A stretch of DNA of 64,000 nt from Thermoleophilia bacterium (GTDB lineage Bacteria > Actinomycetota > Thermoleophilia > Miltoncostaeales > Miltoncostaeaceae). The stretch spans positions 1-64,000 of the forward strand of contig SHVE01000002.1 of assembly GCA_009694365.1 (NCBI GenBank), read 5' to 3'. Below are positions 1 to 60,642 of this stretch, in pieces (position 1 is the stretch's first letter; each line of letters begins with the position of its first letter). The notes beneath the pieces were generated by a model, which made no database searches, was not told where the DNA came from, and saw nothing but the letters and a program-made list of their open reading frames with translations. A program made the position numbers and the translations under genes.

Positions 1-156
1 CGTCGCGCACCCGCCCGGAAGCCGGCCGAGGCGACAGCCGTCGAGGAGACCCCGACCGGCGAGGCCGCCGCGGAGGACGAGAAGCCGAAGCGTCGTCGCA
101 CCCCCGCCCGGAAGCCGGCCGAGGCGACAGCCGTCGAGGAGACCCCGACCGGCGAC
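1..156 (+). repeat. In-frame tandem repeat, 93-bp unit
   Basis: The segment CGG AAG CCG GCC GAG at 16-30 recurs at 109-123, and identity continues through the acidic part to the stop codon (copy 1 to about 60, copy 2 91-156). The spacing is exactly 93 bp, so the frame is kept. Copy 1 is cut by the window edge, so more units may lie upstream. Confidence 0.85.
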
Positions 157-159
157 TAG
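1..159 (+). CDS. C-terminal tail of an unidentified protein with 31-residue charged repeats (partial)
   Basis: The frame is open from the first base to TAG at 157-159; the start lies outside the window. The 52 visible residues are a basic block (KRRRTPARKPAEA) followed by an acidic Thr/Pro block (TAVEETPTGE), present almost twice with a DNA period of 93 bp (31 residues). Basic-acidic low-complexity tails of this type occur on many actinobacterial nucleic-acid-binding proteins, but no catalytic domain is visible, so no function is assigned. A perfect 13-bp hairpin follows immediately. Confidence 0.75.
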   Translation, partial: RRAPARKPAEATAVEETPTGEAAAEDEKPKRRRTPARKPAEATAVEETPTGD

Positions 160-163
160 TGAA

Positions 164-200
164 TCGGAGGGGGAGCCGTCGTGAACAGCTCCCCCTCCGA
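164..200 (+). terminator. Perfect 13-bp stem-loop after the first gene
   Basis: Arms TCGGAGGGGGAGC (164-176) and GCTCCCCCTCCGA (188-200) pair without mismatch around an 11-base loop. No T-run follows. It begins 5 bases after the upstream stop codon, as expected of a terminator. It also explains the apparent GGAGGGG ribosome site before a GTG at 181, which lies in the loop and is probably not the carbonic anhydrase start. Confidence 0.7.
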
Positions 201-258
201 TCGCCCGCTCCGGCCGGGCGTGATCCCCCCGTCACCACCTCACGAAAGGGACCGCACC

Positions 259-813
259 GTGGATCTGATCGATCGCCTCGTCAGTAACGCCCGCCAGTGG
301 AGTACAAACTTCACGGCCGGTGAGTTGGGCGTCACCCCACGTCTTCATCTCGCGGTCGTGGCGTGTCAGGACTCACGGGTCGATCCGCAGAGCCTGCTGG
401 GTCTCGGTCCCGGGGATGCCCACTACATGCGTAACGCTGGCGGTACGGTCACCGACGACATGCTGCGCTCGTTGGTCATCTCGCAGCGCTTCCTCGGAAC
501 GCGCGAGGTCATCCTCATTCACCACACCGACTGCGGAATGCTGCAGTTCCGGGATGACGACCTGCTCGACGATCTCCACGCCGAGACCGGGATGCGTCCC
601 ACGTGGGCAGTGGAGACGTTCGATGACCTTGACGACGACCTGCGGCAGTCCATCCGCCGCATTACCACGAGCCCGTTCGTTCCCTACACGGACAAGGTGC
701 GCGGGTTCGTCTACGAGGTAGAGACCGGACGCCTGCGTGAGGTCATGCCGACGGACGGACGGAACCCGCGCCGGGGGGCCGGGACCGACGGGCCGACCCG
801 CACCACCGAGTGA
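259..813 (+). CDS. Beta-class carbonic anhydrase
   Basis: Zinc enzyme interconverting CO2 and bicarbonate in the cytoplasm. From GTG 259 the protein has 184 residues. The beta-class zinc motif is complete: CQDSR with C36, D38 and R40, then HTDC with H89 and C92. The size fits the small mycobacterial Rv1284-like group. GTG 259 is preceded by GAAAGG at 245-250; a GTG at 181 would add 26 residues but falls inside the hairpin of the preceding gene. The last residues DGPTRTTE and the stop codon are duplicated just downstream. Apparently monocistronic. An alternative is one of the beta-CA homologues that have lost activity, but all ligands are present. Confidence 0.9.
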   Translation: MDLIDRLVSNARQWSTNFTAGELGVTPRLHLAVVACQDSRVDPQSLLGLGPGDAHYMRNAGGTVTDDMLRSLVISQRFLGTREVILIHHTDCGMLQFRDDDLLDDLHAETGMRPTWAVETFDDLDDDLRQSIRRITTSPFVPYTDKVRGFVYEVETGRLREVMPTDGRNPRRGAGTDGPTRTTE

Positions 814-920
814 TCCGGGCGGGCCTCGTCCCTTCCCGTGTCAGGTGGTGCGGACTGACGGGCCGACCCGCACCACCGAGTGATCCGGGTGGGCCTCCAC
901 GTCCATCCCCGTGTCAGGTG
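782..920 (+). repeat. Tandem duplication of the carbonic anhydrase 3-prime end
   Basis: Bases 787-826, which cover the last nine codons including TGA and the start of the untranslated region, recur at 857-896 with 39 of 40 identical (period 70). The similarity continues to a shared GTGTCAGGTG ending at 847 and 920, with a 3-base insertion in copy 2. The second copy is not attached to any open frame of its own. Confidence 0.9.
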
Positions 921-1000
921 ATCGCGGACCGCGCCGCTGACCGACGTCAAATACCCGCCCCGACGCCGACGCATCGCGCACCGACGGGGGCCGGGAGGGG

Positions 1001-1417
1001 TCACGCGGGGCGGACGACCACCTCGACCTCGGTGATCTGTTCCCCCTCGGGTGCCGACCGCTCAAGGCGAAATGCACGGACGACCGGTGCGTCCGGATCC
1101 TGGAGCGACACGATCACGTAGAGGGGGTCGGCGAAGAAGGCGAGCTCCACATCGATACGCGATGGGTACGCCGCGGACCGGGTGTGCGAGTGGTAGATGG
1201 CGAGCAGGTCCTCATCCGCATCCTCGATCCGCTCCATCAGGTCCATCTGCTCGCGTGGGTCCATCACGTACATGAACGGCATGCCCTCGGAGTTGGTCGC
1301 CGGCATCACACGGATGGCGACACCTCCCCTCCCGGCGATAAGACCGCAGCACTCGTTGGGGAACTCATCGCGAGCGTGCGTGACGAGCGCATCCACCAGG
1401 GCCGCCGCGATGATCAC
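1001..1417 (-). CDS. mec: JAMM/MPN metallopeptidase, CysO-cysteine peptidase
   Basis: Zinc peptidase that releases cysteine from the CysO-cysteine adduct. The 138-residue protein has the JAMM signature: E22, then H76-S-H78 with S86 and D89 (HxH-x7-SxxD). The start is GTG 1417, 13 bases after the cysM stop. It is the last gene of a moeZ-cysO-cysM-mec minus-strand operon, the arrangement known for Mycobacterium mec-cysO-cysM. Because CysO here ends in GGQ rather than GG, the peptidase may also trim that residue (inference). Confidence 0.92.
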   Translation of the reverse strand: MIIAAALVDALVTHARDEFPNECCGLIAGRGGVAIRVMPATNSEGMPFMYVMDPREQMDLMERIEDADEDLLAIYHSHTRSAAYPSRIDVELAFFADPLYVIVSLQDPDAPVVRAFRLERSAPEGEQITEVEVVVRPA

Positions 1418-1430
1418 CGGGGAACCCGAG

Positions 1431-2396
1431 CTACCAGAAGATCCCGCGGTCGAGGGTCTCCTCGACCGCCGCGAGCTCTCCGGTCCAGATCCCAGCCGAC
1501 AGGTACTTCCAGCCCCCGTCGCACACGATTCCTACGATCGTTCCGCTCTGCATCTGGGACGCCACGCGGGCACAGGTGTGGAAAACGGCGCCACTCGACA
1601 CCCCGGCGAAGATGCCGAAGTCGGATGCCAGTCGCCGGGTCATAAGGATGGCGTCCATGTTCTCGACGAGCAACTTTCGGTCGAGTCGGGAGAGGTCGAG
1701 GATCGGTGGGATGAATCCGTCATCGAGGCTCCGAAGCCCGGACACCGGGTCACCTTGGAGTGGCTCGCAGGCGACAATCTGGATGTCGGCGCGGTGTTCC
1801 TTGAGGCGGCGTGAACACCCCATGAGCGTGCCACCCGTTCCGAGCCCGGCGACGAACACGTCGATCTCGGGACAGTCGCGCACGATCTCGGCGGCGGTTC
1901 CCTCGTAATGGGCACGGGGATTAGCCGGGTTCCCGTATTGGAACAGCATCGGGATTCCGTTCTGCTCCGACAGCCGGGTGGCCATCGCCACCGCCCCGTT
2001 GGAACCGGTCTCGCCGGGCGACTCCACGATTTCGGCCCCGTAGATCCGGAGGAGGCTCCGGCGCTCTTCGGTCACGTTGTCGGGCATGACCGCCACCAGT
2101 TTGTACCCGCGCACCCGGGCGATCATGGCCAGCGAGATGCCGGTGTTGCCGGATGTCGGCTCCATTATCGTGTCGCCGGGCGTGATCACCCCCCTCGCCT
2201 CGGCGTCGTCGATGAGCGACCTCGCCGTACGGTCCTTGATGGACCCCGTGGGGTTGTGACTCTCCATTTTGGCGAGGATGCGCACGCCCGGGGTGGGTGA
2301 GAGACCCGACACGTCGATGAGCGGTGTCTCACCGATGGTGGCCACGATATCCTCCGAGACCGCGAGAGGCGGAGCCTCGAGGCCCGAGCGCGTCAC
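1431..2396 (-). CDS. cysM: CysO-dependent cysteine synthase (PLP enzyme)
   Basis: Fold-type II PLP enzyme of 321 residues that joins O-phosphoserine and CysO-thiocarboxylate to give a CysO-cysteine adduct. PLP lysine K54 lies in NPTGSIKDR, and the phosphate loop is SGNTG at 82-86. Start GTG 2396 shares its G with the TAG of cysO (TAGTG), showing translational coupling. The neighbours (CysO, activator and JAMM peptidase) argue for CysM rather than sulfide-using CysK; substrate preference is inferred from context. Confidence 0.93.
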   Translation of the reverse strand: MTRSGLEAPPLAVSEDIVATIGETPLIDVSGLSPTPGVRILAKMESHNPTGSIKDRTARSLIDDAEARGVITPGDTIMEPTSGNTGISLAMIARVRGYKLVAVMPDNVTEERRSLLRIYGAEIVESPGETGSNGAVAMATRLSEQNGIPMLFQYGNPANPRAHYEGTAAEIVRDCPEIDVFVAGLGTGGTLMGCSRRLKEHRADIQIVACEPLQGDPVSGLRSLDDGFIPPILDLSRLDRKLLVENMDAILMTRRLASDFGIFAGVSSGAVFHTCARVASQMQSGTIVGIVCDGGWKYLSAGIWTGELAAVEETLDRGIFW

Positions 2397-2671
2397 TACT
2401 GACCGCCCGCCATAGCCGGGAGGATCATCACCGTGTCGCCCGCGGCAACCGCCGTCTCGGTCCAGTCCAGGAGCCGTACGTCCTCGTCGTTGACGTACAC
2501 GTTCACGTATTTGTGCACCGTGCCGTCGGGCGTGAGGATCTGCTGCCCGATGGCCGGGTGGAGATCGCACAGGTTGGTGAGCACCTCGGCGACCGTGGCG
2601 CCATCCACCTCGATCGTGCGCTCACCCCGTGCGGCCGTACGCAGAACCGGCGGGATCTTGACGGTGCTCAC
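2396..2671 (-). CDS. cysO: CysO/MoaD-type ubiquitin-like sulfur carrier
   Basis: A 91-residue beta-grasp protein carrying sulfur as a C-terminal thiocarboxylate. The middle segment VNVYVNDEDVR and the ending ILPAMAGG match mycobacterial CysO closely. One extra residue, Gln, follows the diglycine, so the carrier probably needs trimming before adenylation. GTG 2671 overlaps the TGA of moeZ by four bases (GTGA). MoaD of molybdopterin synthesis is the alternative, but the cysM and mec neighbours favour CysO. Confidence 0.92.
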   Translation of the reverse strand: MSTVKIPPVLRTAARGERTIEVDGATVAEVLTNLCDLHPAIGQQILTPDGTVHKYVNVYVNDEDVRLLDWTETAVAAGDTVMILPAMAGGQ

Positions 2672-3852
2672 GCCGATGCTCCGGCGTGAGATCCCACGCC
2701 CGCGCACCACGACTCGTAATCGCGCAACTGCAGGTCGGCGTTCGGACCGCACGACGGGCAGTCGGGATCGCGGCGAACCGTGAGTTCGGTGAACGTCATA
2801 CCCAGTGCGTCGTAGACGAGCAGGCGACCCGACAGCGTGTCGCCGATGCCCAGCAGAACCTTGATGGCCTCGGTGGCCTGGATGTTGCCCATCACCCCAC
2901 AGAGCACGCCGAGCACACCGGCCTCCCCGCACGAGGGGGCAAGGTCCGGGGGCGGAGGCTCCGGGAACAGGCACCGATAGCACGGGCCGTCGTAGGGGGT
3001 GAACACCGACGCGTGGCCCTCAAAGCGCAGGATGCTCGCGTGCACCAGTGGGGTCCGGGTGATGAGGCTGGCATCGGCGAGGAGGTACCGAGTGGGGAAG
3101 TTGTCGGCGCCGTCCACGATGACGTCGTACTCCGAGACGAGGTCGAGCACGTTGTCGCGGTTGATGCGGAACGGGTACACGTTCACATCTACCTCGGGGT
3201 TGAGCTGCCGGATGGCCTCCTTGGCGCTCACCCCCTTGTTCACCCCCACGCGATCGGTGGTGTGGATGATCTGCCGCTGCAGGTTGCTCTCGTCCACGAC
3301 GTCGTCATCCACCAGCCCGATGGTGCCCACGCCGGCCGCCGCCAAATAGAAGGCGGCGGGGGAACCGAGCCCACCGGCACCGATGAGGAGCGCCTTGCTC
3401 TCAAGGAGTTGGAGCTGACCCTCCTCCCCCACCTCGGGGATGAGCACGTGGCGCGAGTAGCGCGAGCGCTGGGCCGAGGTGAGGATGCGCGGCATCTCAA
3501 CCGGGTGGTTGTTCTGCTTCCACCGCGCGAAGCCGCCGGCGAGGCTGGTGACATTGGTGAAGCCCATCTCGTACAGCGTGTGCGCCGCGAGAAGTGAGCG
3601 CTGCCCACTGGCGCACGTCATCACGATCTCCCGACCGGTGTCGGATGCCACACCCGCGATCCGGCTCTCAAGGAATCCACGTGGCACGTGCACGGCACCC
3701 GGAAGGTGGCCTTGATCCCACTCCGCGCTCTCGCGGACGTCAATGATGAGGGGACCGTCCCCCGCCTCCACGCGAGGAGCGACATCCGCGGGCTCGACCT
3801 CGGTGACGACCACTCGTGCGCGTGCGAGCAGATCCTGATAGCTCGGGGACAT
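2668..3852 (-). CDS. moeZ: Rhodanese-ThiF sulfur-carrier adenylyltransferase (MoeZ/MoeB-like)
   Basis: Activates the CysO C-terminus as an acyl-adenylate and transfers sulfur to it. The 394-residue protein has an N-terminal rhodanese domain (about 14-118, active-site C80 in TCASGQRS) and a ThiF/E1-like domain (about 125-380; GAGGLGS at 158-164; zinc CYRC and CPSC pairs). This order is the reverse of mycobacterial MoeZ, where ThiF comes first. ATG 3852 is preceded by GAGGTGAGG. First gene of the cysteine operon. It may also serve MoaD and molybdopterin synthesis, as MoeZ does elsewhere. Confidence 0.92.
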   Translation of the reverse strand: MSPSYQDLLARARVVVTEVEPADVAPRVEAGDGPLIIDVRESAEWDQGHLPGAVHVPRGFLESRIAGVASDTGREIVMTCASGQRSLLAAHTLYEMGFTNVTSLAGGFARWKQNNHPVEMPRILTSAQRSRYSRHVLIPEVGEEGQLQLLESKALLIGAGGLGSPAAFYLAAAGVGTIGLVDDDVVDESNLQRQIIHTTDRVGVNKGVSAKEAIRQLNPEVDVNVYPFRINRDNVLDLVSEYDVIVDGADNFPTRYLLADASLITRTPLVHASILRFEGHASVFTPYDGPCYRCLFPEPPPPDLAPSCGEAGVLGVLCGVMGNIQATEAIKVLLGIGDTLSGRLLVYDALGMTFTELTVRRDPDCPSCGPNADLQLRDYESWCAGVGSHAGASA

Positions 3853-3896
3853 CGGGTTCCTCACCTCGGTCTCGTTTCCCGGTAAATCCGATGGGA

Positions 3897-3902
3897 ATAG
3901 TA
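3897..3902 (-). promoter_or_regulatory. -10 box of the moeZ-cysO-cysM-mec operon
   Basis: TACTAT on the minus strand (3902 to 3897), 44 bases before ATG 3852. Predicted start near 3890 gives a leader of about 38 bases with a Shine-Dalgarno site. No clear -35. Confidence 0.5.
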
Positions 3903-3999
3903 GCAATTCACTCACGGAGCCCATTCCGCGTAAGGTCGGGGTTCGGGGAGACGCGTGGCGACCAGAGCGAGAGCCCCGTCCCGATGGAGCGAGGTACGG

Positions 4000-4290
4000 A
4001 TGCCGGAGCTGATCCCGAAGAGTGAGTTCGTCAACCTCGACGCCCGCGTGCGCTGCCCCACGCCCGACTGCCTCGGTGACCTCGTGCTGTTCCCCACCGG
4101 CGCGGTGGATCGGGACGGAATCCCCGAGTTCACCAATTCCACGCTGTGCCCGCTGTGCATGACCGGATACGACCTCGAGCCCGACATCACCGATCGCGAT
4201 CTCTACCTGCGGGTGTCATGGATCCGAGCGAACCCGGGGGAACGAGTCCCCGACGTGGTGACGCCTCCGGCCGGGGACGAGGGGACCTGA
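4000..4290 (+). CDS. Small protein with paired-cysteine (zinc-ribbon-like) motif
   Basis: 96 residues from ATG 4000, preceded by GAGG; a GTG at 3955 with GGGGAG upstream and a TAAGGT box at 3931 is an alternative that adds 15 residues. Cysteines occur as CPTPDC near residue 20 and CPLC near 50, a spacing typical of zinc ribbons, with an acidic C-terminus. I do not recognise the family. It starts the long plus-strand run and its stop overlaps the presumed rarA start, suggesting co-translation. Confidence 0.7.
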   Translation: MPELIPKSEFVNLDARVRCPTPDCLGDLVLFPTGAVDRDGIPEFTNSTLCPLCMTGYDLEPDITDRDLYLRVSWIRANPGERVPDVVTPPAGDEGT

Positions 4291-5654
4291 GCACCGAGCC
4301 CGACCTGTTCGGCGACGCCGTGGAAATGGGCCTCTCGGGGTCGCGACCGCTGGCCGCCCGAATGCGTCCCCGATCCCTCGACGAGGTGATCGGCCACGAG
4401 GACCTGCTCGGACCCGACGGATTCCTCCGCCACGTGATCCAGGAGGACCGGGTGCCCTCGCTGATCCTCTTCGGCCCACCCGGCAGCGGCAAGACCACCC
4501 TCGCGCGGGTCGTGGCCGGCAGCACCCGTGCGGTGTTCGAAGAACTCTCGGCAACATCCGCAGGGCTGGCCGACGTGCGGGCGGTCATCTCACGCGCCCG
4601 CGACCGCCTCGCGGCGGGCGGACGCACCGTGCTGTTCATCGACGAGATCCACCGCTTCACGAAGTCGCAGCAGGACGCCCTGCTGCCCGCCGTGGAAGAG
4701 GGGATCGTGGTGCTCATCGGCGCCACGACCGAGAACCCCTACTACGAGGTGAACGCCGCACTGGTGTCACGCATGCGCGTGCTCGCCATCGGGTCGTTGG
4801 GGTCCCACGAGATCGCCGACCTCGTGGACCGGGCCATCACGGACCCGCGTGGGCTGGCAGGCGAGGTGGGTGTGGCCCCCGAGGCGCGTGCGGCGATCAC
4901 CCGAATGGCGGGCGGCGACGCGCGCTACGCCCTCAACCTGCTCGAGGCCTCGGCGGCGCTCGCGGAGGACTCCCCGGTGACACCTGAGATCGTGGAGCGC
5001 GCCGCGGGCGGGCGGGCCGTGGTGTACGACAAGGATGGGGACACCCACTACAACGTCATCTCGGCGTTCATCAAGTCGCTCCGTGGCAGCGACCCCGACG
5101 CGGCCCTCTACTGGATGGCCGTCATGCTTCAGGGGGGTGAGGACCCCAAGTACGTGGCGCGTCGGATGATCGTTGCGGCCAGCGAGGACATCGGCAACGC
5201 CGACCCGCGCGCGCTCGACGTGGCCATCGCGGCCGCGCGGGCAGTGGAGTTCGTCGGGATGCCCGAGGCCCGGATCAACTTGGCCCAGGCAGCGACCTAT
5301 CTGGCCCTCGCCCCCAAGAGCGATGCGGCGTACCGGGGCATCGACGCTGCGATGGCGCGCGTGGCGGAGGAGGGCGCACGGGTCCCCCCGCTCGCCTTGC
5401 GCGATGCCAGTCGGCGAAACGCACGCAACCTCGGTCACGGCACCGGATACATCAACCCTCACGGCGTTCCGGGGCGAGTGACCGGCCAGTCGTACCTGCC
5501 CGAGGGAATGGAAGACGTTCGGTTCTACGAGCCCGGTGGGGTGGGTCCGGAAGGGGACCTCGCCGCTCGTCTCGCGGCGCTCCGAATGCGTGCGCGGAGC
5601 GCGGCGGTGTCTGACACCATGCCGCCGTCAACAGGCGAGGGAGACCACGGATGA
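4287..5654 (+). CDS. rarA: Replication-associated recombination protein A (RarA/MgsA) AAA ATPase
   Basis: Clamp-loader-like ATPase acting at stalled replication forks. Walker A GPPGSGKT lies near residues 63-70, Walker B LFIDEIHRF near 115-122, followed by the sensor GATTENP and the RarA C-terminal tetramerisation region (DPKYVARRMIVAASEDIGNA). The family N-terminus DLFGD...PLAARMRPRSLDEVIG begins before any ATG, GTG or TTG outside the upstream gene, so I place the start at CTG 4287, which overlaps the preceding stop as CTGA. Alternatives are ATG 4218 (73-base overlap) or GTG 4320 (loses DLFGD). Confidence 0.9.
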   Translation: MSTEPDLFGDAVEMGLSGSRPLAARMRPRSLDEVIGHEDLLGPDGFLRHVIQEDRVPSLILFGPPGSGKTTLARVVAGSTRAVFEELSATSAGLADVRAVISRARDRLAAGGRTVLFIDEIHRFTKSQQDALLPAVEEGIVVLIGATTENPYYEVNAALVSRMRVLAIGSLGSHEIADLVDRAITDPRGLAGEVGVAPEARAAITRMAGGDARYALNLLEASAALAEDSPVTPEIVERAAGGRAVVYDKDGDTHYNVISAFIKSLRGSDPDAALYWMAVMLQGGEDPKYVARRMIVAASEDIGNADPRALDVAIAAARAVEFVGMPEARINLAQAATYLALAPKSDAAYRGIDAAMARVAEEGARVPPLALRDASRRNARNLGHGTGYINPHGVPGRVTGQSYLPEGMEDVRFYEPGGVGPEGDLAARLAALRMRARSAAVSDTMPPSTGEGDHG

Positions 5655-42846: not shown

Positions 42847-43122
42847 CCCTGTCGGCCCTCGGACACCAGGGCGTGGATGACGCCTCCACCCCTCGTCCTC
42901 GCTGGGGATGGGCGCCGCCACGGGGTGTGGCGGAGACGGACTCCCATCGCCCCTCACGGGCATCATCACGGCGACCGTCGGGGGCCGAATGAAGCGCACC
43001 CCTGAGACGGACGTCCCCATCCCCGTCCCGAGGAACTGCCAATGGGACCGTGTGGCCTGCGGATACCCACAGGCGGCCACTTGTTACGTGTCAGACACCG
43101 GGGGTCAGACACCGGGGGTCGG
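42847..43122. other. Non-coding space between convergent acnA and suhB with GTCAGACACC repeats
   Basis: Except for the acnA hairpin and a doubled GGGGTCAGACACCG element (43088-43113) nothing is recognised. Open frames here lack product similarity. Confidence 0.55.
43088..43119 (+). repeat. Doubled GTCAGACACCGGGG element
   Basis: GTGTCAGACACCGGGGGTCAGACACCGGGGGTC in two 13-base steps (43088 on, 43101 on, with a third partial GGGGGTC). The same core occurs at 26789 and 37962. Confidence 0.75.
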
Positions 43123-53864: not shown

Positions 53865-54613
53865 TGCCCGAGCACGCGAAACGACGCGGGCGCATCACCA
53901 GCCAGGGGCCGGGTACCGAGCGCATGCACGATGCCGACCTCGGACTACTGAAAGGTCCCGAGCCCGACTTCGTCGCCACCGACCCGTGGCGCGCCCTACG
54001 CATACTCGGTGAGTTCGTGGAGGGCTTCGACGTGCTCGCCCGCGTGGGGCCCGCCGTCTGCGTGTTCGGCTCCGCCCGCTCGGGACCGGACGACCCCGAC
54101 TACCAGGCAGGTGTGGAGATCGGGCGCCTCCTCGCCCGCGAGGGGCGTGCCGTAATCACGGGCGGCGGGCCCGGGCTCATGGAGGCGGCCAACAAGGGTG
54201 CGTTCGACGAGGGCGGCCTGTCGGTCGGCCTCAACATTGAGTTGCCGCACGAGCAGGGGGCGAACCCGTACGTCAACCTCGGCGTGGACTTTCGATACTT
54301 CTTCGTACGCAAGACGATGTTCGTCAAGTACTCCGAGGCGTTCATCGTCATGCCCGGCGGCTTCGGAACGCTCGATGAGGTGTTCGAGGCGCTCGTCCTC
54401 ATCCAGACCGGCAAGGTGCGCGACTTCCCCGTGGTGCTCTACCGCAGTGCCCACTGGGCGGGACTGCTCGACTGGCTCCGGCAGACCACGCTGAAAGAGG
54501 GATTCGTCACCGAGAGCGACCTCGCCCGGATTCATCTGGCCGACACCCCCGAGGATGTCGTGCGCATCGCGTGCGGTGGTGGCGACGGAGCGGCAGGAAC
54601 CGCGACCGTCTAG
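53864..54613 (+). CDS. LOG-family protein (cytokinin-activating phosphoribohydrolase type)
   Basis: 249 residues. VITGGGPGLMEAANKGA and PGGFGTLDEVFEALVLIQTGK (the PGGxGTxxE active site) identify the Lonely-Guy/TIGR00730 group. Cleaves nucleoside 5-prime-monophosphates to base plus ribose-5-phosphate in characterised members. ATG shares its A with the preceding stop. The last 24 codons before the final three residues are repeated downstream at 54670. Confidence 0.93.
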   Translation: MPEHAKRRGRITSQGPGTERMHDADLGLLKGPEPDFVATDPWRALRILGEFVEGFDVLARVGPAVCVFGSARSGPDDPDYQAGVEIGRLLAREGRAVITGGGPGLMEAANKGAFDEGGLSVGLNIELPHEQGANPYVNLGVDFRYFFVRKTMFVKYSEAFIVMPGGFGTLDEVFEALVLIQTGKVRDFPVVLYRSAHWAGLLDWLRQTTLKEGFVTESDLARIHLADTPEDVVRIACGGGDGAAGTATV

Positions 54614-54742
54614 TTAGCCCGGGCCGGGTGATCGACTCGTCGGGGCGCGGACGACGTCACCAGCACCAAGATTCATCTGGCCGACACCTCCGAGGATGTC
54701 GTGCGCATCGCGTGCGGTGGCGGCGACGGAGCGGCAAGAACC
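54529..54742 (+). repeat. Duplication of the LOG gene 3-prime end
   Basis: Bases 54529-54601 (codons for IHLADTPEDVVRIACGGGDG and on) recur at 54670-54742 with 70 of 73 identical and a period of 141, which keeps phase. The second copy has no start codon or promoter. Confidence 0.92.
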
Positions 54743-55197
54743 GAGATGCTGTTGCCACCGACGTTGTGAATACCTGAGGCGACCCGTGCGGCTCCCCCGC
54801 ACCTCGGACAGGAATCACCGGCACGCCACGGCCCCATGGCGTCGGAGCCGTACGCGCACCGGGTCAGGCACCGGACTGCCGTGAGAGGTCCCCCAGAAAC
54901 GCCGTGCGTAACGCCGGGTCCGGGGGCTGCGGTTCGCCTCGAACCGTGGGCGATCCCGTGCGGCGTGGGTTCCGCACACCACGTCGCACAACGACGCAGG
55001 CCGACCCAGGACACTGGCGCGACCGTCCCGCGACGCCGACGTCCCCGGCGCGACGACGATGACGACGACGACCGGTACGGGGCAGACGACCGCATCCATG
55101 GGCACCACGAACGGCACCCGTGGCCACGAGTGCCGCTACTGGCACAGGATGGTGCACACTCAGACGGACAAGCGCGTGCCCCGTGACGAAGCGCTGG

Positions 55198-59239: not shown

Positions 59240-60642
<1,403 letters not shown>

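Follow-up and report, generated by a model that had tools for sequence, protein, structure and literature searches.

The 3′ end of a carbonic anhydrase gene, stop codon included, occurs twice head to tail in the stretch of DNA analysed here (64,000 nt, hereafter the window). The duplication of this gene end, with the stop codon in it, is real and, taken singly, small and ordinary. We put at roughly 0.75 the probability that it arose as a short tandem duplication of the replication-slippage type, which would have left the gene intact, perhaps between GGACCG hexamers, with the second copy then free to drift. The features concerned are collected in Table 1.

Table 1. Features of the carbonic anhydrase locus and two other gene-end copies in the window.
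Feature	Positions	Strand	Basis or remark
Carbonic anhydrase gene (Pro_CA)	181..813	+	PF00484, E 1.3e-13; start placed at 259 by our own codon-usage gene call (ORF 181-813)
Copy 1, 70 nt: last nine codons, TGA and 38 nt untranslated	782..851	+	alignment
GGACCG, left edge of unit	782..787	+	read in sequence; shared run of 6
Core, 40/41 identical to 857-897	787..827	+	alignment
Copy 2, 74 nt, intergenic	852..925	+	alignment
GGACCG, right edge of unit	926..931	+	read in sequence; shared run of 6
JAB-domain protein gene, convergent neighbour	1001..1417	-	PF14464, E 7.5e-23
Other gene-end copy	54529..54602	+	spacing 141; second copy 54670-54743; ends before stop codon 54611-54613
Other gene-end copy	60433..60531	+	spacing 107; spans stop codon 60524-60526

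The Duplicated Unit

The last nine codons of the carbonic anhydrase gene (TDGPTRTTE, 784-810), its TGA (811-813) and the bases that follow all lie within copy 1, as proposed in a preliminary description of this DNA, and the direct repeat itself is found where that description had placed it. At an offset of 70 nt, 40 of 41 bases are identical from 787, or 39 of 40 from 788, and the longest exact run, 33 nt from 787, compares with 13-14 nt in five base-shuffled windows (offsets 30-300). The unit had been given as 782-920 and reaches slightly farther, to 925. When the two copies are aligned end to end, 65 of the 74 columns are identical, the others being five substitutions and four gap columns. 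Moreover, 3′ of the core, the right-hand half of the unit is also duplicated (score 32, reached by none of 300 shuffles). By the alignment and this right-half test, two head-to-tail copies make up the whole unit. The description had also called this repeat the freshest of three, without stating which three. That ranking is unsupported, the ungapped identity being 44/46 here versus 71/74 at 54529-54602, 82/99 at 60433-60531 and 60/62 for positions 1-62 compared with 94-155.

Copy 2 begins after the carbonic anhydrase stop codon, in the gap ahead of the convergent JAB-domain gene, and the offset of 70 is not a multiple of three; thus, it lies outside the reading frame of the enzyme. The positions, the frame and the divergence of both copies are seen directly. 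A copy placed behind an intact stop codon should be tolerated, and copy 2 would be consistent with the earlier view that the copied unit had not been selected for coding.

An assembly artefact, or strain variants merged near the contig end, could be invoked for such a picture, as position 1 of the window is also the first base of contig C2 and falls within a 93-nt repeat (the genome amounts to 1.50 Mb in 19 contigs). The five substitutions and four gap columns that separate the copies, as well as the similar loci on other contigs, make this very unlikely.

No DNA match spanning both copies was found in 19 congeners, 10 of which gave any match; no second copy is seen by eye in the congeners compared, and these are too distant for the gap to be aligned. 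The C-terminal tail of the carbonic anhydrase, about 20 residues long, is present by eye in the congeners L002, L003, L006 and L007 and missing in L009, L010, L011, L013 and L014 (the comparison did not reach the gene ends of L004 and L012). Judging from these proteins, the tail is a variable part of the enzyme among congeners.

Origin of the Duplication

In a slippage event of this kind, the nascent strand would slip back by about 70 nt, perhaps between the GGACCG hexamers that bound the unit, and the carbonic anhydrase gene would then be copied again at its 3′ end. As the stop codon falls inside the duplicated unit, copy 1 would keep the gene whole and copy 2 would be free to drift between the two convergent genes. 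Short tandem duplications produced by replication slippage typically have adjacent head-to-tail copies with short identical bases at their edges, and these copies diverge by substitutions and small indels. The adjacency, orientation and divergence are observed here, and the GGACCG hexamers may be such edges. Slippage duplications differ from the genome-wide set described below, which has a narrow spacing and favours gene ends over gene starts. The GGACCG pair provides mild support for slippage. It was spotted post hoc at the outer edges of the unit, and shared runs of at least 6 nt occur at 415 of 62000 window positions at offset 144 (104 and 217 of 62000 at offsets 70 and 74, respectively).

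A search of the genome yielded no third copy of the unit (the best remaining match has E 0.199), so it is not a dispersed element; its pattern, with at most three mismatches, occurs at 4 places including both copies, and the backwards control at 8. A dispersed or mobile repeat was rejected on this ground and because positions 700-1000 have no phage match. The viral contigs hold no exact match to the core. Copying by a reverse transcriptase was also rejected, no RVT_1 having been found in the genome. In mycobacteria, MIRU copies are short repeats overlapping stop codons, and they form one related family across a genome. The carbonic anhydrase unit shares with these intergenic repeats the overlap with a stop codon and differs in having no relative elsewhere in its genome. 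Among the open-licence PMC papers listed in literature searches, no title or abstract opening describes the present pattern.

It could also be supposed that a transcription terminator lies in the copied unit and that the duplication was retained as a pair of terminators in tandem between the convergent genes. Each copy can indeed fold, and the junction at 840-885 folds better than most of its 200 shuffles, 9 of which do as well (z -1.97). However, the other folds are unremarkable (z 0.42; copies, -0.66 to -1.32), no terminator-like site, with a stable hairpin ahead of a run of T, was found in 1-3000, and no Rfam match lay there in a search of 1-5000. We consider this explanation highly improbable. 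A structured RNA was rejected in view of the weak folds and of the single match obtained in 1-5000, which is sub-threshold and located elsewhere (3379-3438, E 0.63).

Gene-End Copies Across the Genome

Copies of gene ends were surveyed in 1.27 of the 1.50 Mb of the genome, each probe consisting of the final 45 nt of a gene and a further 15 nt, compared with the next 320 nt (copies within about 335 nt); a score of at least 16 was taken as a match, and a mirror test was made at gene starts. Genes truncated at the borders of the 20-kb stretches or shorter than 200 nt, and probes too near an end or containing N, were left out of the counts, here and in the other genomes. With genes called by our own simple codon-usage method, some of these calls being wrong, matches were obtained at 18 of 1112 stops, versus 3 of 1073 starts and none of 691 gene middles (stops versus starts, Fisher p 0.0015). 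The genome thus appears to have gained gene-end copies in unusual number. The carbonic anhydrase end gives the best match of the survey. The 18 stop matches lie at 17 loci, L139 giving two; L187 is an ordinary array of short tandem repeats (spacing 26), and the repeat at L180 is a dispersed motif (spacing 43). As to the three start matches, L186 and L193 are also stop matches of at least 16, and L158 reaches only 15 on the stop side.

In the other genomes sampled, 5 of 1131 stops scored at least 16, namely 0/349 in the congener G018, 1/94 in G030, 0/60 in G020, 1/47 in G043, 1/52 in G050, 1/75 in G003, 0/52 in G001, 1/375 in L043-L122 (the best 80 among the matches listed) and none of the 27 testable stops in the congener loci L002-L014, with no testable stop in G011 and a few stops counted twice, as L043-L045 apparently repeat the contigs already present as L010, L011 and L014. 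At a score of at least 20, the counts are 16/1112 in this genome versus 2/1131 outside. With outside sets of 4 and 1 matches among 1004 stops only, Fisher tests of own versus outside stops gave p 0.008 and 0.0003. The contrast is not clean, as the outside controls gave 1 match in 1057 starts and 4 in 670 gene middles.

Spacing and Selection

At 10 of the 17 loci, the spacing is 66-75 nt (many about 72), and a 10-wide bin holding 10 loci arose in 0 of 20000 uniform simulations and in 1 of 20000 under a log-uniform null. In an earlier scan, 11 of 19 clusters with a spacing not divisible by three lay at 70-74. A scan made without gene-end probes gave 23 of 63 clusters with a spacing not divisible by three in this genome, and the samples of G018 and of G003/G001/G011 gave 0 of 14 and 2 of 17, respectively; a Markov control without N gave no cluster in its one replicate. 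The 63 clusters comprise 10 stop-spanning, 1 start-spanning, 22 intergenic, 6 other overlaps and 24 inside genes, these classes depending on the gene calls: the repeat at L195:19772 looks by eye like a gene end and is yet counted as intergenic, and the intergenic rows at window 1-62, L150:10467 and L196:1 resemble coding arrays in uncalled genes.

Inside genes, the spacing is divisible by three in 24 of 24 cases, as would be predicted if duplications arose at random and were then sifted by selection. Little harm is to be expected from copies that lie at gene ends or in gaps, and the stop bias is partly expected because such copies are harmless. With target sizes of 34350 stop, 34350 start and 145435 intergenic positions (34350/214135 for stops), the 10 stop-spanning cases among the 33 stop, start and intergenic clusters represent about twice the share of some one in six expected from target size. 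Thus, allowing for harmlessness leaves only a modest stop bias, and it is the narrow spacing that stays unexplained. Slippage together with selection against harmful sites would explain much of the placement of the gene-end copies, and the spacing of 66-75 nt would reflect some feature of the duplicating process. Plain slippage does not predict this spacing, nor does it predict the 31-37 nt repeats of L194, L172, L193, L137 and L162:3363, with apparently unrelated bases between them; these loci and L191, among those with the narrow spacing, repeat 31-37 nt, and the intervening 30-41 nt are unlike the flanks.

A process peculiar to this lineage could be imagined in which DNA around stop codons is copied to a site about 72 nt farther downstream, stalled or terminating transcription complexes being one conceivable setting; the carbonic anhydrase end would be one of its products. 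The excess at stops over starts and gene middles, its absence from the stops of G018, and a spacing rarely reproduced in simulations all speak for such a process. Nevertheless, we find it doubtful: the class was defined on the same genome as used to test it, copies at gene ends and between genes are those most likely to survive selection, the stop-spanning share being about twice that predicted by target size, and no common motif was seen by eye at the repeat edges in 14 loci. Neither is the class uniform. The carbonic anhydrase copies are contiguous, and the bases between the repeats also look duplicated at L188 (score reached by 0 of 300 shuffles); L149 and L195 show a weak sign of the same (8 and 9 of 300). 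Outside this genome, a copy at spacing 72 is found at a gene start, L119. A more specific proposal, in which a mutational process of the lineage copies about 35 nt around stops to about 72 nt downstream, with a size set by a molecular machine and the carbonic anhydrase as one of some 17 products, appears improbable to us; one or two RNA polymerase footprints are a candidate for that size. Should further genomes of the species show the same genome-wide excess and narrow spacing, a duplication process linked to gene ends would be indicated.

The geometry of part of the wider set, with repeats of about 35 nt around about 37 nt, is also that of a CRISPR repeat-spacer unit, and off-target integration by a CRISPR adaptation enzyme would leave such a repeat-spacer-repeat arrangement at several loci. 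However, no Cas1 was found in this genome, which is 98% complete, or in the 19 congeners, several of them incomplete, and no Cas2 was found in this genome. In addition, the repeats here vary by locus and have two or three copies only, and in the carbonic anhydrase case both halves are repeated. This origin is therefore exceedingly unlikely, and replication slippage is preferred for the carbonic anhydrase locus.

Other Repeats in the Genome

At L137:16701 and L188:6582, gene ends appear in three copies (three local matches each); at L137, the TGA is kept by eye in all three. L139:10028-10177, between two convergent genes, is a tandem duplication of 151 nt that extends into the ends of both. A motif around GGTGTCTGACAC is dispersed over L154:16229, L180:10106, L182:19140 and positions 43090-43120 of the window, with a stretch resembling TAACAATT behind it in some cases, and the L154 repeat also matches L136 and L155. 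Finally, the 93-nt repeat at the start of contig C2 (window 1-155) is coding and seems by eye to be present also at the start of contig C19, on the opposite strand (L204 1-160); the two contigs may adjoin, the repeat having broken the assembly.
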